Shown here: positions 1 to 11,026 of the stretch, one piece after another
Numbering within the stretch: the first letter of the stretch is position 1
Layout: every line of letters starts with the position of its first letter
From: Thermococcales archaeon 44_46
Lineage (GTDB): Archaea > Methanobacteriota_B > Thermococci > Thermococcales > Thermococcaceae
Assembly: GCA_001507935.1 (NCBI GenBank)
Contig: LGET01000037.1
Location: forward strand, 1-11,026
DNA length: 11,026 nt
Direction: 5' to 3'
Notes under the pieces: generated by a model
Seen by the model: the letters and a program-made list of their open reading frames with translations, nothing else
Told to the model about the DNA's origin: nothing
Databases searched by the model: none
Position numbers and translations under genes: made by a program

Positions 1-95
1 TAGACTTTTATAAATTCCACTACCTCGTTCTTTCTAACCCCAATAAAGACTACTCCGGAGTATCTCTCCTTAGGTGTAAGCAGGTCAGTCTCCAT
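1..95 (-). CDS. Unidentified protein, N-terminal fragment (runs off left edge)
   Basis: The minus strand is open from an ATG at 95 to the window edge, giving 31 codons and part of another. The peptide begins METDLLTPKERYSGVVFIGV and continues with charged residues and short hydrophobic beta-like stretches, which looks like the start of a soluble protein. I do not recognise the family. The start is supported by a TATA-like element centred about 26 bases upstream and by coding-like composition right after the ATG. No Shine-Dalgarno sequence precedes it, so translation would be leaderless or nearly so. It lies 36 bases downstream of the metallophosphoesterase on the same strand. Too little is visible to propose a function. 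Confidence 0.55.
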   Translation of the reverse strand, partial: METDLLTPKERYSGVVFIGVRKNEVVEFIKV

Positions 96-115
96 GATTC
101 TTTACTTTGATATTT

Positions 116-127
116 GTTTTTATATCC
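116..127 (-). promoter_or_regulatory. TATA-box promoter for the left-edge gene
   Basis: On the minus strand the sequence GGATATAAAAAC sits just after the stop codon of the metallophosphoesterase. Its centre is about 26 bases before the ATG at 95. Archaeal transcription usually starts about 25 bases after the TATA centre, so the mRNA would begin at or within a base or two of the start codon. The purine-rich bases just upstream fit a BRE. This is a pattern reading only. Confidence 0.45.
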
Positions 128-131
128 TTTT

Positions 132-644
132 TCAAAGGCTCATAAATCCTAGCGGCTCTCCGGTGTCAAGGTTTACTATCTTTACCTCTCTCTTTCTCGT
201 ATCCAGAAATGCAACGCTCTTCACTCCGCTGACGTACCCGCAAACTTCACCGGGATTTAGAACTATGCTCCTTCCGGTTTCCCTTATCTCATACTTGTGA
301 GTGTGTCCCCTTATCACTACGTCATAAAGCTGGCTCCGTATAAATGCTTCAACCACCTTCTCATTTGTACCATGCAAAAGAACTATTTTAAGTCCGTCTA
401 TCTCCAGTTCTAATATCTCCTCTTCTACTCCAATTGCCTTTTTGAGGCCTTCTCTTTCTCCATCGTTGTTGCCGAAGACTCCCTTAAAGTGCGCATTTAG
501 CTTTGAAAGCTCCTTTTTGACAAAAGGTGCCACGTAATCACCTGCATGGAGCACGAGGTCAACGTTTTCTTTGTTAAACAGCTCAACGGCTTTTGCTATA
601 GCCGGAAGATTGTCATGAGTATCGCTCATTATCCCTATCAGCAT
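132..644 (-). CDS. MJ0936/YfcE-like metallophosphoesterase
   Basis: A 170-residue calcineurin-like metallophosphoesterase. It shows every metal-binding motif in order: D8-x-H10 in SDTHD, G35-D36, GNND at 58-61, H91, and GHTH at 113-116, followed by NPGE at 130-133. Family members such as MJ0936 and E. coli YfcE are small cytoplasmic Mn/Ni-dependent phosphodiesterases active on model substrates, with unsettled physiological roles. The length is typical. The ATG at 644 is chosen because a GAGGTG ribosome-binding site lies seven bases upstream; an in-frame ATG at 668 would place that site inside the gene. The gene is divergent from the replication operon and on the same strand as the left-edge gene, and has no clear terminator. 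No physiological substrate can be inferred from its neighbours. Confidence 0.9.
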   Translation of the reverse strand: MLIGIMSDTHDNLPAIAKAVELFNKENVDLVLHAGDYVAPFVKKELSKLNAHFKGVFGNNDGEREGLKKAIGVEEEILELEIDGLKIVLLHGTNEKVVEAFIRSQLYDVVIRGHTHKYEIRETGRSIVLNPGEVCGYVSGVKSVAFLDTRKREVKIVNLDTGEPLGFMSL

Positions 645-676
645 TTGTCCACACCTCTGTATAGTCAAGGATGAGG

Positions 677-692
677 AGTTTATATCTTTATC
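677..692 (-). promoter_or_regulatory. Promoter of the metallophosphoesterase gene
   Basis: On the minus strand the stretch GATAAAGATATAAACT resembles an archaeal BRE plus TATA box. The TATA centre near 683 predicts a start site near 658. This gives a leader of about 14 bases that just includes the GAGGTG ribosome-binding site before the ATG at 644. The complementary reading, TTTATATC at 679-686, could also serve the divergent gins23 gene, with a start near 708 and a leader of about 50 bases. A weaker alternative for gins23 is the A/T-rich stretch at 703-713. Confidence 0.5.
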
Positions 693-758
693 TTCGGTGG
701 GCTAAAGCTTAAGAACTTCATGTAATCAACAATTTGTATGGTGAGAGGGTGAAGGATG

Positions 759-1253
759 ATGCTGGTTGGCAGGGCATTGATCCCGGTTAAGGTGTTAAAA
801 TCATTTGGAAGCTGGAAACCAGGGGATACCCCATTAGTTGAAGACTGGAAAGCTAAAGAACTGTGGGAGAGCGGTGTAGTGGAGATTATAGATGAGAGTG
901 AGAAAATCATTCGCGAACTTGAGAAGGTTATAAATGAAGAAAAAAACAGCGAGCCAATAACATCAATTCCTGAAGGACTGTATGAGAGGGCTGAATTTTA
1001 CATTTACTACCTTGAGAACTATGTAAAAACTAAGACGGATGGGGATATCGAAGTTTTGAGTGCTAAAATGACCAAGCTCTCCAATTTAAAGAGAAAATAT
1101 GAGTACCTCAAAAGGCTTCGCTTTAACAAGATAATCAACGCAATAATGTTCAGACCGGGAAGCTTGGAAATCTTGAGCAGGCTCTCATTGGAAGAGAGGA
1201 GAATATACCTCCAAATATCGCAGATTAGAAATGAGTGGCTGGGTGAGAAGTGA
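759..1253 (+). CDS. gins23: GINS complex subunit Gins23
   Basis: A protein of 164 residues related to eukaryotic Psf2/Psf3. In archaea Gins23 pairs with Gins51 to form the GINS tetramer, which joins MCM and a RecJ-like/GAN partner in the replicative helicase complex and stimulates MCM. The N-terminal part (about residues 1-45, with IPVKVLKSFGSW and a WKAKELWESGVVEII stretch) looks like the small beta domain. The rest is charged and helical. This B-then-A order is that of Gins23, not Gins51. Of two adjacent ATGs (756 and 759), 759 is preferred because GGTGA at 748-752 is six bases upstream. The stop codon overlaps the MCM start by one base (TGATG), so the two are translated together. I recall the same gins23-mcm pairing in Pyrococcus furiosus. 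Confidence 0.88.
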   Translation: MLVGRALIPVKVLKSFGSWKPGDTPLVEDWKAKELWESGVVEIIDESEKIIRELEKVINEEKNSEPITSIPEGLYERAEFYIYYLENYVKTKTDGDIEVLSAKMTKLSNLKRKYEYLKRLRFNKIINAIMFRPGSLEILSRLSLEERRIYLQISQIRNEWLGEK

Positions 1254-4200
1254 TGGACAGGCAGGAGATGATAGAGAGGTTTGTGAAGTTTCTTAGAGAG
1301 TACACTGATGATAGTGGGAACAAGGTTTATTTGGATGAAATAAGGGACGTGCTGACCGTCATTCCGAAAAGGCATATTGCGATAAACTGGGAGCATTTGA
1401 ACGCTTTTGACCCCGAACTTGCTGGCGAGCTTATAGACAACCCCGAAGAAGTCATCCTCGCAGCTGAAGATGCCCTTCAGATAGTCCTTCAGGAGGATTT
1501 CTTCAGAAAGGAGCCTTTTCCAATTCACGCCCGTTTCTATGGTTTGCCAAAGAGCTATCTCGTGAAAGAGCTTGGGAGTGAGCACATAAACAAATTCATC
1601 CAGGTGGAGGGAATAATAACGAGGATGACTGAAGTGAAGCCCTTTGTTTCAAGAGCAGTCTATGTCTGCAAAGACTGTGGACAGGAGATGGTGAGACTTC
1701 AAAAACCCTATGCCACGCTGATAAAGCCCAACAAATGTGAAGCCTGTGGAAGCAGAAACATTGAGCTTGACGTTGATAAGAGTACTTTTCTCAATTTCCA
1801 GAGCTTCAGACTCCAGGATAAGCCTGAAAGCCTTAAAGGTGGACAAATGCCCCGTTTTGTTGATGTGATTTTGCTTGATGACCTTGTGGATATTGCCCTC
1901 CCTGGAGATAGAGTGGTCATAACCGGAATCATGAGGGTTGTTCTGGAGCAGAAGGACAAGAGGCCGATATTCAGAAAGATAATAGAGGCAAACTACGTGG
2001 AGCAGTTAAGCAAGGAGATAGAAGAGCTCGAAATAACTCCAGAGGATGAGCAGAAGATTAAGGAGCTTGCAAAAAGGAAAGATATCGTTGATGTAATAGT
2101 CGACTCGATTGCCCCTGCTATTTATGGAATGAAAAAGGAAAAACTCGGAATTGCTCTCGCGCTGTTTGGAGGAAACACGAAGCAACTTCCTGATGGGACA
2201 AGGCTAAGAGGAGAGAGCCATATTTTGCTCGTGGGAGATCCTGGAGTGGCCAAGTGTGTTGACTACGATACGAAAGTCGTGCTGGCAGACGGAAGCATCA
2301 GACCAATAGGAGAACTTGTTGATGAAGCCATAGAGAAAGCCAAGGAAAGTGGAACTCTCGGAGTTGTTGACGATGGCTATTATGCACCCATAGACCTTGA
2401 AATCTATGCCCTTGATGCTTCAACACTAAAAGTTAGGAGAGTTAAGGCAAATATTGCCTGGAAGAGAACTGCTCCAGAGAGAATGTTCAGGATAAAGACC
2501 GCGAGCGGAAGGGAGATAAAGGTAACGCCCACACATCCTTTCTTTATCTTCGATGAGGGAAGTTTCAAGATCAGAAAAGCGGAAGAGCTGAAAGTGGGAG
2601 ATTTCATAGCAGTTCCGAGGATCATTCCTGCAAAAGGGAAACCAGTAAATCTCAACATGGCACCTATTCAGAAACCAAAGACTGCAAAGAGCAGGCTTAC
2701 CCTTCCAGAGTTCGCAGATGAGCAGTTCTGGTATATCATTGGGCTAATTACGGGAGAGGGACACGTCCAAAAGAGAGGTGGCAGTGCTACTCTTTACTTC
2801 ACCAACAGTGACGAAGAGCTTATAGAGCAAGTCAGGGAGTATTTTAGCAGGATTGGGCTGAATCCAAAAGTAAGGGGTCCTCACAATGGAAAGACAGCTC
2901 ACGAAGTCTATGTCTCCAGTGTTGAGCTTTATAGCCTCCTTGAATGGCTTAAAATCTCCAGTAACTCTGCAGAAAAGAGGATCCCACCCCAACTGTTTAG
3001 TGCTCGGGATGAGGACATAAAAGCCTTCCTCAGAGGATATTTCGATGCTGAAGGAACTGTTGATAAAGGACGGCCAAAAATAACGATTGTCTCAGCATCA
3101 AAAGAACTTGCTAGGGGTATACAACACCTGTTACTGCGATTCGGTGTTAAGTCTCAGCTCCATGAAACCGTGAGTAGAGCAACAAATGGAAAGATGGGTG
3201 AGAAAAAGACGTACTATCGGCTTTTCATTACCGGAGAGGATGCAATAAAGTTCAAGGATGTTATTGGATTTGGGCTTCAGAGAAAGATGGAAACTCTCAA
3301 GAAAGTGACTCAGAACATCAAACCAAACACGAATGTTGACGTTATTCCCGGTGTTAGCAGTCTTCTCAAGGGGCTTAGAACGAGAGCTGGACTCACTCAA
3401 AAGGAAATGGGGATAAACCGTTCCACATATCTGCATTACGAGTTGGGAGACAGATTGCCCACTAGAGAAAAGCTTGAATCCATAGCCAGAACTCTCGAAA
3501 CACATCTACCCAACTCACATGAGGTTAAACTTCTCAAGCTCCTTGCCAGTTCCGACATATTCTGGGACAAAGTCGAGGAGATAGAAGAGTACAAGCCAGA
3601 GCACCCGTGGGTATATGACCTTCAGGTTCCCGAGCATCATAACTTCATAGCTAACGATATATTTGTTCATAATAGCCAGATACTCCGTTATGTGGCGAAT
3701 TTAGCACCGAGGGCTATCTATACGAGTGGGAAGAGCTCAAGCGCCGCGGGTCTGTGTGTTGCTCCGAACTCCCTCATCATAACAGAAAACGGTGCGTGGG
3801 AGATTGGAAAGCTCACTGAAGACTGGATTAAAGACGTAGGGGCAATTCAATACTCCGAGGGTATTTATTACGCTCCGTATTTCGGAGAGGGCTTCTCGTT
3901 CGGCGAAGGAAAAATCAAGAAATCGCCAATAAGCAAGGTGTGGAAACTAAAATCCCCGAGAGAGCTTATCATGTTAAAAACAAATACAGGAAAAGAAGTT
4001 ATAACAACTCCTGAGACCCAATTGATGGTATTCAAAGATGGCAACTTCAAGTGGAAGAAATCCCAGGATATTCGGCAAGGGGATTATGTATTAACACTTA
4101 GAAAGATCGAAGTTGAAGAGAAACCGGTTTATGTTATCGAAATGCTCCAAGATCTTGATGAGCTCGTTTTATATGGGATCAAAAAAGATGTAAAAAGGTT

Positions 4201-7200
4201 AATTGAGAAGATAAGAAAAGAAAAAGGCATAACAAAGAGAAAACTTGCAAAGATTCTTGGAGTAAATGAGAATATGCTGTATCATAACTGGGTGAATGAG
4301 GGAGCAAGAGGCAACATTACCATGAAACATCTGAAGAAGCTTGTTGAGCTTGCAGAAGTGCCACTTTCATCAATTCATCCCAGAGAGGTTGCTCTTCAAG
4401 ATGGAAAAAGAATCAGAATACCCAAGCTCCTTGATGAGAAGTTTGCTTATTTTGCTGGACTAATTGCGGGAGATGGGGAGATATCCCGAGCAGGATGGGG
4501 AGTTTCTGTGAGATTCTCTAACAGGAGCAGCGAAATGAGAAGAAAATTCAAGGAACTAGTTGAGTATCTTTTTGGAATAGAAGCTAAGGAAAATGCGCAA
4601 GAGGACAGAGTTCCAGCAGTGCGCTTTCATTCAAAGGTAGTTGCTCATCTTCTCGAAAAGCTGGGCATTCCGCTTTCACCAAAGCCTGAAAAGGTAGATA
4701 TCCCACCAGAACTCTTTGCAGCACCAAAAGAAGTCTTAGCTGCCTATCTCAGGGGAGTATTTGATTGCGACGGAACGGTGGTTCTAAGAAAGAGAGGATC
4801 ATCGTACATAGAGTTGGACACTACAAGTGAAAAGCTTGCTAAAAAGATTCAGCTGGCACTTCTTCGCTTTGGTATAGTCTCCCACTTAAGGAAGAAAAAC
4901 AGAAAAAGATATGTTAGTGAGATAAATGGAAGAAGAGTTATTTCTAAACACGATAAATGGGAGCTCAAGGTATATGGTGAAAACATCATTCACTTTGCGA
5001 GGGAAATTGGGTTTGAACATCCCGAGAAGAAAGCCCGCCTTGAAGAACTGGTTAGAAAGCTAAGAGCCTCAAAAAGGGACACTAACATCGACGTTGTTCC
5101 TGGTATCGGAGGCTTGCTCCGGAAGATAAGAACCTTCTATGGAATGGGCATTGAAGAAACCTACGGCACAAACTTTGGCTCCGCCATTGAGCATGGACGT
5201 CCAATATCAAGAAGACTCCTCAAAAGGGTTCTTAGGAACCTTGAGAAAGCTGATATCGAGAGAGTTCCCGTCGAACTGCCCAATGGGCTCAGGGTTAGAA
5301 TTGGTGAAGTTATAGAACCAAAAGAAATCGGGCTTAAGAGAGAAGAGTTTTACGAGCTGTTCAAGAGGAATAGAAGTAGAAAAATAGACTACGCACTCCT
5401 TGTAAAAGTTGCAAGAGCCCTTGCAGAGAGAGATGAAAAAGCGTACAGAGAGCTTGTCTGGATTTTAAGCGACGTGACTGCAAAGGAAATGGAGATACGC
5501 GAGAAAATAGAGTTCCTCAGAAAGCTTGTTAACTCGGAGTTGCTCTTTGAGAGAGTCACTGAGAGCAAGAGAATAAAAAGTCTTTACGAATACGTCTATG
5601 ATATCACCGTTGAAGGTTCCCACAGCTTTATTGCTAACGGATTCGTAGTCCATAATACCGCTGCTGCAGTGAGGGATGAATTAACAGGTTCCTGGGTTTT
5701 GGAGGCTGGAGTTCTTGTTTTAGCCGATATGGGCATAGCATGTCTTCACCCAGATTCGAGAGTGCTTGTGAACGGCAAATACCTTCCAATAAAAGAGTTA
5801 TTTAATGAGGCAAAGTCCTACAAAGCCAAATCTAACGGGGAGATAGTGGATATTCAGGAAGATACTTTCGAAGTTGTCTCATTAGACCTTGAAAGAATGA
5901 AAACTGGTAACTCTTTGGCAACAATCATCCGGAAGAAACAATGGAAAGGAGAACTCGTTAAGCTAAAATTCCGCTCGGGTAATGAACTCCTTCTTACCCC
6001 TGACCACTGGCTCATTGATGGTAAAACATTAGAATGGAAAGAAGCGGGAGAGTTTAAACCGGGTGATACGGTCGTTGCTCCTCTCAAACTCCCAGAGGTG
6101 AAGGAGAAAATCCACATCCTTGACATACTTCCTGAAAACTGGCGGGTTAAATTAACCAAGGAAGAAAAAGAAGAGCTAAGAAAAGAAGTTCTTAGAAGAT
6201 TCAAGTCTATTGCAGAATTCAACAGGCACTACGGTATTTCAAAAGACTTCCTATCTGGGAGAGGAGCTATAAAGGTTGGCAAGTTCAGGAAAATACTCAA
6301 AGATTTCGGCATTTACGAAAAATGGAAGAAGCGTCCCCTGGCTTATGGGCCATATTCAAGAAGAGAAAAGCTTAAGGTCGCATATATAACTCCAGAAATG
6401 GCCTATTTCTTTGGATTTCTGTACGGAGACGGGTGGATTCAAAGAATTGGAGATAGGGTAACACTGCGGATAACCCAATCACTTGTCAATGAAAAACAGC
6501 TCAAAAGGTTAAGAGAGAGTTTTGCATTATTTTATCCCAAAAAACTCAGAGAGTACAGGAGAACTACGTCGAGCATCTTGGCAGGGAACAAAATCTCGAG
6601 TGAAAGCATAATCTTCTCAGTAAATTCTCCTCTTCTCGGCTACATCTACGAGTACCTCACAAAAGACAATCTAACGAACCTCTTTGGGCTAGATGATGAG
6701 GCACTTAAAGCATTTGTTGCAGGGGCTCTGGACTCAGACGGTTGTGTATCAATAAAGCGGAGTGATAAAGGAGAAGTTGTCCACGTGGAATTCCTCCTAT
6801 CTAATGATATCAGGAAAGATAATGCCTTTGCCATGCTCCTAAGGAGATTTGACGTGTATGCCAGAATTGTAAGAGACAAACGAGAAAACGTTAATAGAAT
6901 ACAAATAACCTCTAGGGAGGACGTTAAAAACCTTTTAGAAGCTGTGAAATCTTACAGCATAAAGGTCAAAGAAATCCCTGAAGTTAAACGCCTTATATCG
7001 TCCAAAAGCGACAAATTGCCCTCAGAACCTGTCAAAGAAATTGCGAGGAGGATAAGAGAGGAAATACCAGCTTCAATTCTCCTGAAAAAAGGTCTTTGGA
7101 GTATTATCTATGAGTACTCCAAAGGCATCCGTGTTCCAACTAGGAAACAAATCCATAAACTTCTGGAGAGACTTTCGGATTATCTCAGCCCGGAAATAAA

Positions 7201-8224
7201 ATTTAAGCTTGAAATCCTAGCAAGAAGAGACTACTTCCTTGACGAAATTGTGGAGGTAGGGAGGATACCATATGAAGGGCATGTTTACGATCTTTACGTG
7301 CCTGTTTATCATAACTTTGTAGCCGAAGGAATAATTGTGCACAACTGCATTGACGAAATAGACAAGATGAGCGATAGGGATAGGAGCTCCATACACGAGG
7401 CCCTTGAGCAGCAGACCGTTAGTATATCAAAGGCGGGAATCACCGCGACGCTGAACGCAAGAACCACGGTTATAGCCGCGGCCAATCCTAAATATGGAAG
7501 GTTCAACAGGATGAAGCCTCTTCCAGAGCAAGTGGACTTGCCTCCAACACTTCTAAGCAGATTTGACCTTATATTCGTTCTTCTCGATGAGCCAGACGAA
7601 AAACTTGACTCTGAGATAGCCGAGCACATACTTAAGGTCAGAAAGGGCGAAGCTGAGGCAATTACTCCGAAGATACCCCACGATCTTATTAAAAAGTACA
7701 TAGCCTATGCAAGAAAGAATATCAAACCGGTGCTCAGCAAGGAGGCAATGGAGGAAATCAAGCGCTACTATGTTAAGATGAGAAGAACAGTGGGGAGAGG
7801 AGGCGACGAGGAAGGAATTAAGCCTATTCCAATCACTGCAAGACAGCTTGAGGCCCTCATAAGGCTTAGCGAGGCTCATGCAAAAATGAGGCTCAGTGAG
7901 ATTGTCACAAAAGAAGACGCCAGAGCTGCCATTGAGCTCATGGAGTATACACTTAGGAAAACGGCAATGGACGAAGAAGGAAACATTGATGTCAGCATCT
8001 TGGAGATTGGAAAATCCTCAAAGAAAATCAACAAGATGGACAAGATTCTCAATATAATAAAAGAGCTTCAGGATTTGGAAGACTACGGGGCCCCTAGGGA
8101 AGAGATAATAAAAGAGGCCAGCAAACACGGAATAGGAAAGAGTGAAGTTGAGAAAATATTGGAAGAACTCAAAGCGAACTCAATGATATATGAACCGCGC
8201 TCGGGCTACTACAAAGTTTTGTGA
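1253..8224 (+). CDS. mcm: Replicative DNA helicase MCM precursor with three inteins
   Basis: Precursor of 2323 residues; removing the three inteins leaves 681, normal for archaeal MCM. MCM forms the ATP-driven hexameric ring that unwinds DNA at the fork. In the spliced protein, the N-terminal domain has a zinc ribbon (C139, C142, C162, C165) and an oligonucleotide-binding fold to about 255. The AAA+ core has Walker A GDPGVAKS (328-335), Walker B CIDE (390-393), sensor 1 at N436 (AAANPK) and an LLSRFD arginine finger (R461). A winged helix occupies about 615-681. The exteins are 334, 27, 28 and 292 residues. The ATG at 1253 overlaps the gins23 stop and has GGTGA six bases upstream; a GTG at 1250 is in frame but only three bases from that site. 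The helicase core looks intact, so the gene should work once spliced. Confidence 0.97.
2255..3673 (+). mobile_element. Intein 1 of MCM (Walker A site), LAGLIDADG homing endonuclease
   Basis: In-frame intein of 473 residues, inserted between Lys and Ser of the P-loop (GDPGVAK|S). Splicing residues are complete: Cys1 ([10 protein letters not shown]), block B TPTH with H94, block F around 453-466 ([14 protein letters not shown]), then His472-Asn473 and a +1 Ser. The endonuclease has two LAGLIDADG motifs, GLITGEG (E168) and RGYFDAEG (E266). Both metal-site acids are Glu, not the commoner Asp, but still acidic, so activity is plausible. After an NVDVIPG motif (360-366), residues 370-415 look like a Cro/CI-type helix-turn-helix ([10 protein letters not shown], then [10 protein letters not shown]), probably a DNA-recognition module. 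The insertion removes the Walker A serine from its lysine until splicing. I believe this is the site called cdc21-a/MCM-a in intein nomenclature, but that name is from memory. Confidence 0.97.
3755..5656 (+). mobile_element. Intein 2 of MCM (SSSAAGL|T site), LAGLIDADG homing endonuclease, no block B His
   Basis: In-frame intein of 634 residues, the largest of the three, between SSSAAGL and TAAAV, 27 extein residues after intein 1. Cys1, block F ([14 protein letters not shown]), His633-Asn634 and a +1 Thr are present. Block B reads TPET (85-88) where TxxH is expected, so the conserved histidine is missing. I recall that a Thermococcus kodakarensis CDC21 intein splices without this histidine using a nearby lysine (Lys58); Lys61 here is a candidate equivalent, but this is unaligned inference. 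The endonuclease motifs are GLIAGDG (D240) and RGVFDCDG (D339), both intact. A helix-turn-helix-like stretch (about 146-200) precedes them. NIDVVPG (444-450) and a looser helix-turn-helix-like region follow. Residues 500-600 are extra compared with intein 1. Confidence 0.96.
5741..7345 (+). mobile_element. Intein 3 of MCM (before the Walker B acids), LAGLIDADG homing endonuclease
   Basis: In-frame intein of 535 residues, 28 extein residues after intein 2, between ADMGIA and the Walker B core CIDEIDKM. Splicing residues are complete: Cys1 ([10 protein letters not shown]), block B TPDH (86-89), block F at about 515-530 ([14 protein letters not shown]), His534-Asn535 and a +1 Cys that becomes part of the Walker B motif. 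The endonuclease motifs are GFLYGDG (D230) and AGALDSDG (D333), with both acids present. A helix-turn-helix-like stretch precedes the first motif (about 145-195), and another follows at 430-482, where [12 protein letters not shown] resembles a segment in intein 1. The NVDVIPG motif of inteins 1 and 2 is not seen. It is the most divergent of the three, so it probably arrived independently. Confidence 0.96.
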
Positions 8225-8225
8225 A

Positions 8226-8236
8226 AAGATTAATAA
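8226..8236 (+). promoter_or_regulatory. Candidate promoter for aIF2-beta
   Basis: The A-rich stretch AAAGATTAATAA starts directly after the mcm stop codon. A TATA-like core near 8229-8236 predicts transcription from about 8257. The leader would then be about 13 bases and would just include GAGGTGA at 8259-8265, five bases before the ATG at 8271. There is no terminator between mcm and this gene, so read-through from the gins23-mcm transcript is also possible. Confidence 0.45.
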
Positions 8237-8270
8237 GGCAGAGATAGAACCTTATAGCGAGGTGAGAAAA

Positions 8271-8693
8271 ATGGAGTACGATTATTATGATTATGAGAAG
8301 CTTTTGGAAAAAGCGTATGAAGAACTTCCAGAGAACGTTAAGCACCATACATCGAGATTTGAGGTTCCCGCTGCAATCGTGACAATTGAAGGTAACAAGA
8401 CAATAATCGAGAACTTTAGAGACATTGCTGAGGCAATGAACAGGGATCCGAACCACCTCCTCAAGTTTATCCTGAGGGAAGTTGCCACAGCAGGTGTCTT
8501 GGAAGGAAGAAGGGTTGTATTGCAGGGACGTTTTACCCCATACCTCATAGCGAACAAAATGAAGAAATACCTCAAAGAGTACGTCATCTGTCCCGTATGT
8601 GGCTCTCCAGACACGAAGATCCTCAAGAGAGATCGCTTCCACTTCTTGAAGTGTGAAGCCTGTGGTGCCGAAACACCAATAGAGCACCTCTGA
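8271..8693 (+). CDS. eif2b: Translation initiation factor aIF2, beta subunit
   Basis: A protein of 140 residues matching archaeal aIF2-beta in length and layout. It is the beta subunit of the heterotrimer that brings initiator methionyl-tRNA to the small ribosomal subunit, where aIF2-gamma binds GTP. An N-terminal helix (residues 1-22) is the gamma-binding part in this family. The alpha/beta core (about 30-100) contains [14 protein letters not shown] and [16 protein letters not shown]-terminal zinc ribbon has C107, C110, C128 and C131. The ATG at 8271 is chosen for its strong GAGGTGA ribosome-binding site. The reading frame stays open upstream to an ATG at 8190, but that part lies within mcm and is not conserved-looking. 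It follows mcm by 46 bases. Linkage of this factor to replication genes is, as I recall, common in Thermococcales. Confidence 0.95.
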
Positions 8694-8697
8694 GCTC

Positions 8698-8715
8698 TTT
8701 TTCACTCTTTTATTT
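8698..8715 (+). terminator. T-rich terminator after aIF2-beta
   Basis: A run of five T (8698-8702) and a second cluster, TTTTATTT (8708-8715), follow the stop codon within a few bases. Archaeal RNA polymerase terminates at such oligo-T tracts without a strong hairpin. The GAGCTC just before the run is a short palindrome and may add little. Confidence 0.6.
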
Positions 8716-8750
8716 GTGTGCATGTATTCTTTTAGACATTTTACGACTAT

Positions 8751-8766
8751 GAAAATCCTTTTAAAG
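8751..8766 (+). promoter_or_regulatory. Promoter of the methylmalonyl-CoA decarboxylase operon
   Basis: GAAAATC (8751-8757) resembles a BRE and CTTTTAAAG (8758-8766) a TATA box. The predicted transcription start is near 8787. With the start codon at 8817 the leader would be about 30 bases. An alternative, weaker TATA-like stretch is TTTACAAAC (8770-8778). Confidence 0.5.
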
Positions 8767-8789
8767 GGGTTTACAAACTACAACTTAGT

Positions 8790-8802
8790 TAACCAATGGT
8801 TA
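8790..8802 (+). promoter_or_regulatory. 13-base palindrome, candidate operator
   Basis: TAACCA-A-TGGTTA is a perfect inverted repeat with six-base arms and a one-base centre. It lies just after the predicted transcription start (about 8787) and before the preferred ATG at 8817, where a bound repressor could block the polymerase. I cannot match it to a known Thermococcales regulator. A short palindrome in A/T-rich DNA may also occur by chance. Confidence 0.3.
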
Positions 8803-8816
8803 TGGGGGCAGCTCTT

Positions 8817-10385
8817 ATGACTATGGAAGAAAAAGTGAAGGAACTCTATGAAAAGAAGGAGAAAATTCTTAAGATGGGTGGAGAAGAAAAAATCGCAAAG
8901 CAGCACGAAAAAGGGAAGCTTACAGCAAGAGAAAGAATCGAAAAGCTCCTTGATCCGGGAAGCTTCGTGGAGCTTGGAATGTTCGTAAAACACCGCGGCA
9001 CAGAATTCGGCCTCGACAAGATGGAACTGCCTGCAGATGGAGTTATTACCGGTTACGGAACCATCGATGGCAGATTGGTCTTTGTCTACGCCCAGGATTT
9101 CACTGTTATGGGTGGTTCTCTTGGAGAAATGCATGCCGCAAAGATAAAGCGCATCATGGAGCTTGCTCTGGAAGCAGGTGCTCCGGTAATAGGTCTCAAC
9201 GACTCCGGTGGAGCAAGAATTCAGGAGGGTGTTGACTCCCTTAAGGGCTATGGTGAAATCTTCAAGATGAACACGATTCTGAGTGGAGTGGTTCCACAGA
9301 TTACTGCTATCATGGGTCCCTGTGCAGGTGGAGCAGTTTACAGTCCTGCTATAGGCGACTTTATTCTCATGGTCGACAATCCTGCAAGCTATATGTTCAT
9401 TACCGGTCCTCAGGTAGTAAAGGCCGTCACTGGTGTGGAAGTTTCTCCAATTCAGCTTGGTGGTGCAATGATTCATGCTCAAAAGAGCGGACAGGCCCAC
9501 TTAATAGGCAAGAGTGATGAAGAAGTTCTCATGCTCATAAGAAAGTTGCTAAGTTACCTTCCATCAAACAACATGGAAAAGCCACCAAGATACCCGACCA
9601 ACGACCCACCCTTCAGAAAGAGTGAAAAGCTCTATGAGATAGTTCCCGACGATCCCAACAAAGGTTACGATGTGAGGCAGGTCATCTATGAGATTGTTGA
9701 TAGAGATGCCAACGGAAATCCGGATTTCCTCGAAGTACTTCCATACTTCGCTCCAAATGCAGTTGTGGGCTTTGGAAGAATGAACGGGCAGACAGTTGGT
9801 ATAGTCGCAAACAACCCAATCCACCTTGCTGGAGTTCTTGACATAGACAGCTCCGACAAGATAGCAAGGTTCGTAAGAACCTGTGACGCCTTTAACATCC
9901 CGATAGTCACCCTCGTTGATGTCCCCGGTTACTTACCCGGAGTTCAGCAGGAATACGGTGGAATCATAAGGCACGGTGCAAAGGTACTCTACGCTTATTC
10001 AGAGGCAACAGTTCCGATGGTTACAGTAATTCTAAGGAAAGCTTATGGTGGAGCTTACTTAGCAATGGGAAGCAAGCACCTCGGTGCAGATTTTGTCTTT
10101 GCCTGGCCAACAGCTGAGATAGCCGTTATGGGCCCAGAGGGAGCAGCGAACATTATCTTCAGGAAGGAAATTGCCAGCGCAGAGAACCCAGAAGCGGTTA
10201 GACAGGAAAAGATAAGGGAGTACAGAGAGAAGTTCGCTAACCCATATGTGGCCGCAAGCAGAGGCTACATAGACGACGTTATCGACCCAGCAGAGACAAG
10301 AGGAAAGATAATCATGGCGTTGGAAGCTTTGGAGAGCAAGCGTGTAAAGCTTCCACCGAAGAAGCACGGCAACATACCGCTGTGA
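8817..10385 (+). CDS. mmdA: Methylmalonyl-CoA decarboxylase alpha subunit (carboxyltransferase)
   Basis: A 522-residue acyl-CoA carboxyltransferase of the crotonase-like fold, with the two halves typical of MmdA and propionyl-CoA carboxylase beta. The N-terminal half has the oxyanion-loop motifs DSGGARIQEG (129-138) and GPCAGGAVYSPA (167-178). The C-terminal half has DVPGYLPG and RKAYGGAYLAMGSK. It would move the carboxyl group of methylmalonyl-CoA to biotin on the carrier subunit. Of four in-frame ATGs (8796, 8802, 8817, 8823), 8817 is favoured by GGGGG at 8804-8808, eight bases upstream. The next gene encodes an OadG-type membrane subunit, which points to the membrane decarboxylase. A carboxylase would need a biotin carboxylase, which is not seen here. 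As the family also serves carboxylases, substrate and direction are inferred. Confidence 0.9.
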   Translation: MTMEEKVKELYEKKEKILKMGGEEKIAKQHEKGKLTARERIEKLLDPGSFVELGMFVKHRGTEFGLDKMELPADGVITGYGTIDGRLVFVYAQDFTVMGGSLGEMHAAKIKRIMELALEAGAPVIGLNDSGGARIQEGVDSLKGYGEIFKMNTILSGVVPQITAIMGPCAGGAVYSPAIGDFILMVDNPASYMFITGPQVVKAVTGVEVSPIQLGGAMIHAQKSGQAHLIGKSDEEVLMLIRKLLSYLPSNNMEKPPRYPTNDPPFRKSEKLYEIVPDDPNKGYDVRQVIYEIVDRDANGNPDFLEVLPYFAPNAVVGFGRMNGQTVGIVANNPIHLAGVLDIDSSDKIARFVRTCDAFNIPIVTLVDVPGYLPGVQQEYGGIIRHGAKVLYAYSEATVPMVTVILRKAYGGAYLAMGSKHLGADFVFAWPTAEIAVMGPEGAANIIFRKEIASAENPEAVRQEKIREYREKFANPYVAASRGYIDDVIDPAETRGKIIMALEALESKRVKLPPKKHGNIPL

Positions 10386-10395
10386 GGTGCGAGAG

Positions 10396-10785
10396 ATGGT
10401 CACAGTGGAGTTTTTCCTTGAGGGCTTTTATATTACCATTTTGGGTGTTGTGGTGGTTTTCCTAGTGCTGGCACTGCTCGCCTTGGCAATGTACGGAATA
10501 GGCCATCTAGAGAAAGCGCTGATTGAAAGAAAAAAGCCTGTGGAAGTTAAGCCTTTACCCAAAGAAGAGAAAGAAGAAAAGGTCATCGCCGAAGAGAAGC
10601 CTTCAATTGAGCCCAAGAAGCTTGCTGTAATCACTGCTGCGGTTTTGGCCTACATAGCGGAGAAAAACGCCCAGCTCAGGCCTTTGCCGTTTAAAAAGAA
10701 ACCTTCCGATGTTTGGCGTTTATATGGCGTCCAAACCCAACTTGAGGAAGTTGAGAACTTTAATTATGAAATGGGGGCATGGTGA
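10396..10785 (+). CDS. mmdD: OadG-type membrane subunit of methylmalonyl-CoA decarboxylase (delta)
   Basis: A 129-residue protein with one clear membrane helix at about 11-35 (FYITILGVVVVFLVLALLAL), then a Lys/Glu/Pro-rich linker (about 46-73), a short Ala-rich helix (LAVITAAVLAYIAE) and a polar tail ending NFNYEMGAW. This matches the OadG/MmdD family, which anchors the carboxyltransferase to the membrane beta subunit and stabilises the complex. The helix and the Ala-rich segment are the family's hallmarks. GAGGTG at 10384-10389 lies six bases before the ATG at 10396; an in-frame GTG at 10387 falls inside that site. The gene starts 10 bases after the alpha-subunit stop and is two bases from the next gene, so the three form one operon. 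Confidence 0.85.
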   Translation: MVTVEFFLEGFYITILGVVVVFLVLALLALAMYGIGHLEKALIERKKPVEVKPLPKEEKEEKVIAEEKPSIEPKKLAVITAAVLAYIAEKNAQLRPLPFKKKPSDVWRLYGVQTQLEEVENFNYEMGAW

Positions 10786-10787
10786 TA

Positions 10788-11026
10788 ATGAAAGGTAAAG
10801 TTAAGGTCATTGTTGATGGCGTTCCCTACGAGGTTGAAGTTGAAGAACTCGGTGGCGGGAAGTTCAAAGTCAGTTTTGAAGGAGAAAGCTATGAAATTGA
10901 AGCCAAAGACCTTGGAATACCAATGGGTGCCCTTCAAGCTCCTTCGGCAGCTCCTGTTCAGGCTGGTGCTCCTGTCGCTACTCCTGCTCCGGCTCCGGTA
11001 TCGGCTCCTTCAGCGCCGGTTGGGGT
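10788..11026 (+). CDS. mmdC: Biotin carboxyl carrier subunit (gamma), N-terminal part, truncated by window end
   Basis: The first 79 codons are visible. Residues 1-45 alternate charged and hydrophobic residues (MKGKVKVIVDGVPYEVEVEE) like the N-terminal beta region of archaeal biotin carriers. A Pro/Ala-rich flexible linker begins near residue 50 (APSAAPVQAGAP and so on) and continues to the edge. The biotinyl domain with its AMKM lysine should follow beyond 11026 and cannot be confirmed. The carrier would shuttle carboxybiotin from the alpha subunit to the membrane beta subunit, where decarboxylation is coupled to sodium export. The ATG is two bases after the previous stop, and GGTGA (10781-10785) overlaps that stop as ribosome-binding site. 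The beta subunit gene would be expected downstream. Confidence 0.85.
   Translation, partial: MKGKVKVIVDGVPYEVEVEELGGGKFKVSFEGESYEIEAKDLGIPMGALQAPSAAPVQAGAPVATPAPAPVSAPSAPVG

Follow-up and report, generated by a model that had tools for sequence, protein, structure and literature searches.

Three inteins in the ATP-binding centre of a Thermococcales MCM gene, a stack probably assembled largely one site at a time

The DNA analysed here (the window) comprises 11,026 nucleotides of Thermococcales archaeon 44_46 (GenBank assembly GCA_001507935.1, contig LGET01000037.1, positions 1 to 11,026 of the forward strand). It carries, on the plus strand, a gene for the archaeal replicative helicase MCM (1250..8224), whose frame is interrupted, as read from the sequence, at three points by the inteins I1 (2255-3673), I2 (3755-5656) and I3 (5741-7345). 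Translation would give a precursor of 2324 aa when started at GTG 1250 and of 2323 aa when started at ATG 1253. The N-extein (1253..2254), containing MCM_N and MCM_OB, runs through the Walker A lysine (GDPGVAK|); two middle exteins of 27 residues (ab, 3674..3754) and 28 residues (bc, 5657..5740) separate the inteins, and the C-extein (7346..8224) opens with Walker B (CIDEIDKM) and ends at the stop codon. The filled sites are named a (after the Walker A lysine), b (27 residues on) and c (just before Walker B CIDEIDK), while a fourth, d (EALEQQ|TVS, 7414..7415), is empty in the window.

Once the three inserts are left out, GDPGVAKS and CIDEIDK are restored, giving a mature MCM of 682 residues (from GTG 1250) or 681 residues (from ATG 1253). 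Its MCM_N, MCM_OB, P-loop, lid and winged-helix domains (PF14551, PF17207, PF00493, PF17855, PF21120) follow one another in order, as in an archaeal MCM replicative helicase. Pfam detects these MCM domains together with three intein splicing domains and LAGLIDADG domains, at E-values so low that chance is excluded. An initial sequence-only reading of this DNA had described three complete inteins lying between Walker A and Walker B, middle exteins of 27 and 28 residues and a mature protein of 681 residues. The exact boundaries, splice residues and Pfam domains agree with that description, the length being right when counted from ATG 1253. It had also held that no working helicase can arise until all three inteins are spliced out, which their position supports, and the assembled part of the source genome (79% complete, in 272 contigs) holds a single MCM match.

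Each insert has the termini of a class 1 intein (Cys1, a C-terminal His-Asn and a Ser, Thr or Cys at +1), is of homing endonuclease-bearing size and contains two LAGLIDADG motifs with acidic residues, as expected of a homing endonuclease. I1, at site a (473 aa), has the block B motif TPTH and a +1 Ser. Its LAGLIDADG motifs are GLITGEG (2741..2761) and GYFDAEG (3035-3055), and a helix-turn-helix stretch (HTH_3, 3365..3508) lies after the endonuclease motifs and before the C-terminal splicing part of I1; the intein's best matches among solved structures are 6rpq and 6rpp. I2, at site b (634 aa), is followed by a +1 Thr and carries GLIAGDG (4457..4477) and GVFDCDG (4754-4774); in its block B, TPET (4007..4018) replaces TxxH, leaving no His at position B:10. 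I3, at site c (535 aa), has TPDH in block B and a +1 Cys. One Pfam LAGLIDADG stretch exceeds the threshold in I3, and both of its motifs, GFLYGDG (6413..6433) and GALDSDG (6722-6742), were found by pattern. The ratio of nonsynonymous to synonymous substitution rates (dN/dS) was examined in 18 comparisons, six per site and some between other genomes only, about four of which have a synonymous rate near or above 1 (among them the window against L157 and L154 at a, and against L088 at c). It was below 0.5 for both the splicing and the endonuclease part in 18/18 pairs, with values of 0.08-0.40 in the endonuclease part. Such values fit function in both parts and, together with the recent sharing between species described below, may be an indirect sign that the intein-free site is cleaved.

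An order-wide search covered 94 genomes from 6 genera, 76 of which have a complete MCM on one contig. Outside these 76 stand 13 loci with an incomplete MCM, possibly enriched for long, intein-rich alleles, as well as L166, which has no usable frame, and G010, G036, G062 and G091. Among the complete MCMs, 15 of the 16 possible filling patterns occur, with 0 to 4 inteins in related species: ab 9, abcd 9, none 8, a 7, d 7, ad 6, abd 6, cd 6, acd 4, abc 3, ac 3, bd 3, b 2, bcd 2, c 1 and bc 0. Site a is filled in 47/76, b in 34/76, c in 28/76 and d in 43/76. At least three inteins are present in 24/76, where independent filling predicts 23.4, and a, b and c are filled together in 12/76. When full and mini inteins are separated by length alone, at least three inteins of endonuclease-bearing length occur in 13/76, the window included, and four in 2/76. 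The same a+b+c arrangement is found in the assembly G077, on a contig of 1.25 Mb, and in the protein P0001 (Thermococcus litoralis at NCBI). P0002 (assigned to T. argininiproducens) and P0003 (Palaeococcus ferrophilus) likewise have endonuclease-sized inteins at these three sites, but with d also filled. A protein search with the whole precursor returned 268 matches, and among the best 120 of these, a set in which the length limit favours long precursors, 58 carry three or four inserts, including 20 with four, and the inserts almost always occupy these same four sites; some of the proteins bear names from Archaeoglobus, Thorarchaeota or other archaea.

The sequence-only reading had left open how often the three sites are filled together, and had given commonness of the triple in the genus as a finding that would refute its view. 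With at least three inteins in 5/11 complete MCMs of the window's genus, and with four-deep stacks in 9/76 of the order besides the triple counts above, the question of frequency is answered and the rarity of the triple was rejected. The observation is confirmed and belongs to a known kind, the triple being common in the order. In 41 Thermococcales genomes, 47 multi-intein genes with 105 inteins have been reported (PMC10643990). Among the titles and abstract openings of open-licence literature on Thermococcales MCM inteins, or on three or four inteins in MCM, this particular stack was not found described.

Occupation of the same sites is known from other archaea. The CDC21-1 and CDC21-2 inteins of Pyrococcus MCM (Pab and Pho) lie at the P-loop and 27 residues downstream, that is, at the same two sites as I1 and I2; those of P. 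abyssi are described as mini-inteins of 164 and 268 residues (PMC6801210), whereas the window's are endonuclease-sized, at 473 and 634 residues, and site c is occupied in addition. For haloarchaeal MCM, up to four inteins (MCM-a to MCM-d) are reported in the catalytic domain, the first just past the Walker A lysine, at positions 335, 362, 401 and 415 (PMC3972481); the window's sites fall at 335, 362, 390 and 413 counted from GTG 1250. Sites a and b agree between the two numberings, while the names c (5740/5741) and d (7414/7415) may denote other sites. In 129 Haloferacales MCMs, a and d are filled together in 38, with nothing else in 33 of those. Outside MCM, the polB gene of Haloquadratum walsbyi is described as likewise harbouring three large endonuclease-containing inteins in a replication gene, in another host protein and at other sites (PMC10643990). 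Besides, L070 (titled Halobacteriales) carries GDPGVAK, unlike the GDPGTGKS reported for core haloarchaeal MCMs.

The filling of three of the sites shows little trace of host relatedness. On an extein tree of the 76 MCMs, the minimum number of changes is 24 for a, 24 for b, 22 for c and 18 for d, against shuffled-label means of 23.5, 25.1, 22.9 and 24.7. Sites a, b and c would accordingly have been gained and lost nearly at random relative to this tree, which is the behaviour expected of mobile parasites and unlike that of a conserved switch. Since their filling follows the tree no better than shuffled labels, it argues against conserved control through splicing.

How neighbouring sites came to be filled was approached by comparing fourfold-degenerate sites in inteins and exteins. 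Inteins of distant species can be almost the same where the adjoining exteins differ. In the clearest pair, G039 and G029, 185/198 fourfold sites agree in intein a and 255/270 in intein b, but only 7/14 in the ab spacer between them, with 0.53 for the exteins overall; the spacer (81 bp) differs at 19/81 nucleotides (Fisher p 1.4e-5, spacer versus inteins). Because the spacer is unlike while a and b are alike, a single repair tract is disfavoured, as the spacer should have come along. Between the window and G077, agreement is 76/116 in the N-extein, 119/176 in a, 10/14 in the ab spacer, 225/242 in b, 11/17 in the bc spacer, 208/210 in c and 100/100 in the C-extein, and the bc spacer differs from b and c (Fisher p 1e-4). 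The window also agrees with G078 at 191/205 sites in c, 70/98 in the C-extein and 10/17 in the bc spacer, and with G081 at 188/231 in b, the extein standing at 0.60. For the window, the figures for b and c suggest recent sharing with other species; no comparable excess is seen for a in these pairs. Surveying all neighbouring sites that are both filled (351 a-b, 91 b-c and 210 c-d pairs), we found both neighbours at an identity of at least 0.75 in five pairs: G039-G029, window-G077, L145-L150 (G071-G023; a 47/60, b 257/286, spacer 7/14), L086-L091 and L153-L155. The last two are uninformative because they are close relatives whose exteins are alike.

Co-conversion of flanking extein was assessed in 18 pair-site cases with an intein identity of at least 0.80 and an extein identity of at most 0.62, many of which draw on the same genomes and are not independent. 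Within 10 codons of the intein, synonymous identity is 115/180 (0.64) on the left and 115/168 (0.69) on the right, against controls of 0.46 and 0.57. In codons 10-30 on the left it is about 0.55-0.63 against 0.49-0.61, and in codons 30-60 it is 0.57 on the left and 0.57 on the right against 0.50 and 0.54. By these measures co-conversion appears to be present but limited, and longer on the right; its reach in these cases would be about 10 codons to the left and as many as 30 to the right.

The reading we favour, at a probability of roughly 80%, is that an ordinary archaeal MCM was invaded at three of the four Thermococcales intein sites and that the stack was built largely one site at a time. 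Each insert would be a self-splicing intein with a LAGLIDADG endonuclease, maintained by homing and precise protein splicing. The endonuclease would cut MCM alleles in which its own site is unoccupied, and the break would be repaired by copying in that intein with limited flanking extein, as the sequence comparisons suggest; judging from its motifs, the precursor would then have to shed all three inteins to yield the 681-residue helicase. If only limited flanking extein is copied, sites 81-84 bp apart can be filled separately. We lean, by a little more than even odds, towards the view that co-conversion usually fades within a distance comparable to or shorter than these spacers, so that the four Thermococcales MCM sites act as separate homing sites and endonuclease-bearing inteins can stack three or four deep in one gene, unlike the mutually hindering neighbours of Haloferax. 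The new content here is that the spacer DNA favours separate homing with limited co-conversion: the spacers between sites would record, at the nucleotide level, how a stack forms, mostly by sequential homing. Double-intein homing in Thermococcales has been named as worth testing (PMC10643990).

Several results weigh against such independent, stepwise filling. MCMs with four inteins (9/76) and with none (8/76) each exceed the 4.4 expected under independence. Site d tracks the extein tree, with only 4/500 shuffles giving as few as its 18 changes. Sites a and b co-occur above expectation (Fisher p 0.008; median p 0.039 over 18 independent pairs, in which they agree in 8.9 on average and are opposite in 1.4), and c and d show a weak excess (Fisher p 0.017; independent pairs median p 0.18). 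Partial Mantel tests, beyond extein distance, give correlations of 0.48 for a-c, 0.50 for b-c, 0.29 for b-d and 0.29 for c-d (p 0.0005-0.0055), and none for a-b or a-d; the positive values may reflect joint inheritance, or the slowly evolving extein protein distance may be a poor stand-in for kinship. Synonymous identity is raised further out on the right (0.65 in codons 10-30, against controls of 0.52 and 0.47) and in the left 60-150 bin (0.67 against 0.59), so that tracts are not always very short. Lastly, the tract shared by the window and G077 continues to the right of c for about 3.7 kb, as far as the contig reaches; identity is 95.9-100% by segment and 93% over the final 129 query bases.

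These results bear most directly on an alternative in which neighbouring inteins move jointly as one haplotype and the triple was inherited or transferred as a block. The a-b association in occurrence is what such co-homing would produce, as is the linkage of full and mini states: 15 full a inteins accompany 11 full and 4 mini b inteins, and 12 mini a inteins accompany 1 full and 11 mini (p 0.0014, by length only and uncorrected for relatedness). The positive Mantel values for a-c, b-c, b-d and c-d, and the single tract of intein c plus downstream DNA common to the window and G077, point the same way. Against it, of the hundreds of neighbour pairs surveyed only five have both inteins alike, two being close relatives, and the remaining three keep unlike spacers (7/14 in G039-G029, 7/14 in G071-G023 and 11/17 in window-G077). 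In Haloferacales, moreover, a co-homing model was reported as not preferred and co-homing as very inefficient (PMC10643990). We consider transfer as a block unlikely. A different concern is that the exact mosaic of this contig is partly an assembly chimera of two strains. The fragmented state of the source genome would allow it, and identity between the window and G077 is 84-91% in the N-extein and intein a (82-91% with the upstream DNA included), climbs to 97% in b and 99.6% in c, and stays high to the contig end; the G077 assembly itself has 4% contamination, making a chimera there possible. P0001, however, matches G077 at 333/333 residues in the N-extein and 472/473 in intein a, but at only 282/293 in the C-extein, where G077 and the window agree at 292/293; contamination of the window by a P0001-like strain would therefore not by itself explain the shared C half. 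The G077 copy of that half sits in the 1.25-Mb contig, and the triple filling is itself present in G077 and P0001. A chimera of this kind seems improbable to us.

The stack could also be a regulatory device in which MCM splicing senses temperature, redox state or DNA and gates replication, as the sequence-only reading had raised, with redox acting through Cys1. One functional MCM would need three splicing events, and conditional splicing is established for the RadA inteins of Thermococcales: that of P. horikoshii needs heat and single-stranded DNA, while the RadA intein of a Thermococcus splices at lower temperature (PMC5790916). RadA intein splicing and the mode of replication in archaea are also, by its title, the subject of a 2024 paper. 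For Pyrococcus mini-inteins, splicing is reported even at 37 C (PMC6801210). Filling is not conserved, 8/76 MCMs being intein-free with nearly every pattern represented, and the lack of tree memory at a, b and c together with the range of 0 to 4 inteins in relatives leaves control of replication by splicing without support. As for redox, Cys1 is the sole cysteine of I1, I2 and I3 have one extra cysteine each, both within a LAGLIDADG motif, the middle exteins are cysteine-free, and among extein residues at the splice sites only the +1 residue of I3 is a cysteine. I1-I3 showed no dedicated redox pair, and control through extra cysteines was rejected when a cysteine survey of the inteins gave nothing. 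Conditional splicing of the MCM inteins is possible in principle, as is a set order of splicing, though the sequence gives conditional splicing no support, and a switch made of the triple stack appears very unlikely. Stepwise invasion by mobile inteins remains the account we prefer.

A second new element concerns how the b-site inteins splice. Across the 76 complete MCMs, the block B motif is TPTH in 47/47 a-site, TPDH in 28/28 c-site and TPEH in 43/43 d-site inteins; at site b (n=34) it reads TPET in 31, TSET in 2 and TRET in 1, with His in 0/34. The residue aligned with position 58 of the 140-aa b intein of L138 is Lys in 28/34 of these b-site inteins and Arg in 6/34. A 2014 review counts Tko CDC21-1 (from T. 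kodakarensis), where Lys58 takes over, as one of two inteins that lack the histidine of block B (PMC4031507), and in a 2018 paper its orthologs are treated as a small group having Leu at -1 (PMC6333167). We infer that the L138 intein is Tko CDC21-1. Aligned through it, I2 shares with Tko CDC21-1 and its orthologs the lack of His at B:10, a lysine at the residue-58 position (Lys64, 3944..3946) and Leu at -1; the L138 intein differs in having no endonuclease. Since I2 lacks the block B histidine and keeps the lysine and the Leu at -1, the first step of its splicing probably follows the compensated route known from Tko CDC21-1. The block B histidine is missing in all 34 examined b-site inteins of the order, which makes them a natural set for studying compensated splicing. 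In the wider protein set (best 120 of 268 matches), a loose pattern scored 83 b-site inserts as TxET in 61 (one also with TxxH) and as no simple match in 22.

Further observations concern intein mobility. The b mini-inteins of L123 (G052) and L132 (G063), both without an endonuclease, agree at 55/62 fourfold sites while their exteins agree at 112/250, as if an endonuclease-free intein had moved alone. The 533-aa c intein of L132 (G063) and the 157-aa one of L136 (G019) agree at 55/60 fourfold sites in their common part, which looks like a recent loss of the endonuclease. Against G077, window positions 5938-7599 and 5081-5652 contain long difference-free runs in c and b beside stretches about 5% different, suggestive of patchy gene conversion. 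The right end of the tract shared with G077 was not found beyond the contig: over the following 10 kb of G077 the only matches were short repeats and a single stretch at 71%. A short repeat pair in G077 (L175 5254-5401 and 6100-6191), about 850 bp apart, matches many contig ends of the source genome at 91-100% and is probably an insertion element that breaks the assembly. Among the best 120 proteins, P0091, P0104, P0110 and P0116 have inserts at 398, 331, 332 and 358, off the usual four sites, representing either further sites or alignment slips.

The MCM gene lies among several others. On the plus strand, a GINS23-like gene (756-1253) precedes it and aIF2-beta (8190-8693 as listed), a decarboxylase alpha subunit (8796-10385), an oadG-like subunit (10387-10785) and a further small gene, represented by its start only near the window end, follow; a YfcE-like phosphodiesterase (132-668) is encoded on the minus strand. 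An Rfam scan of the window gave zero RNA elements at the gathering score. Elsewhere in the source genome, open frames on contigs C144, C171, C234, C272, C247, C48, C227, C216 and C112 give other intein or LAGLIDADG matches, several of which fall in one 1754-aa frame of C144.

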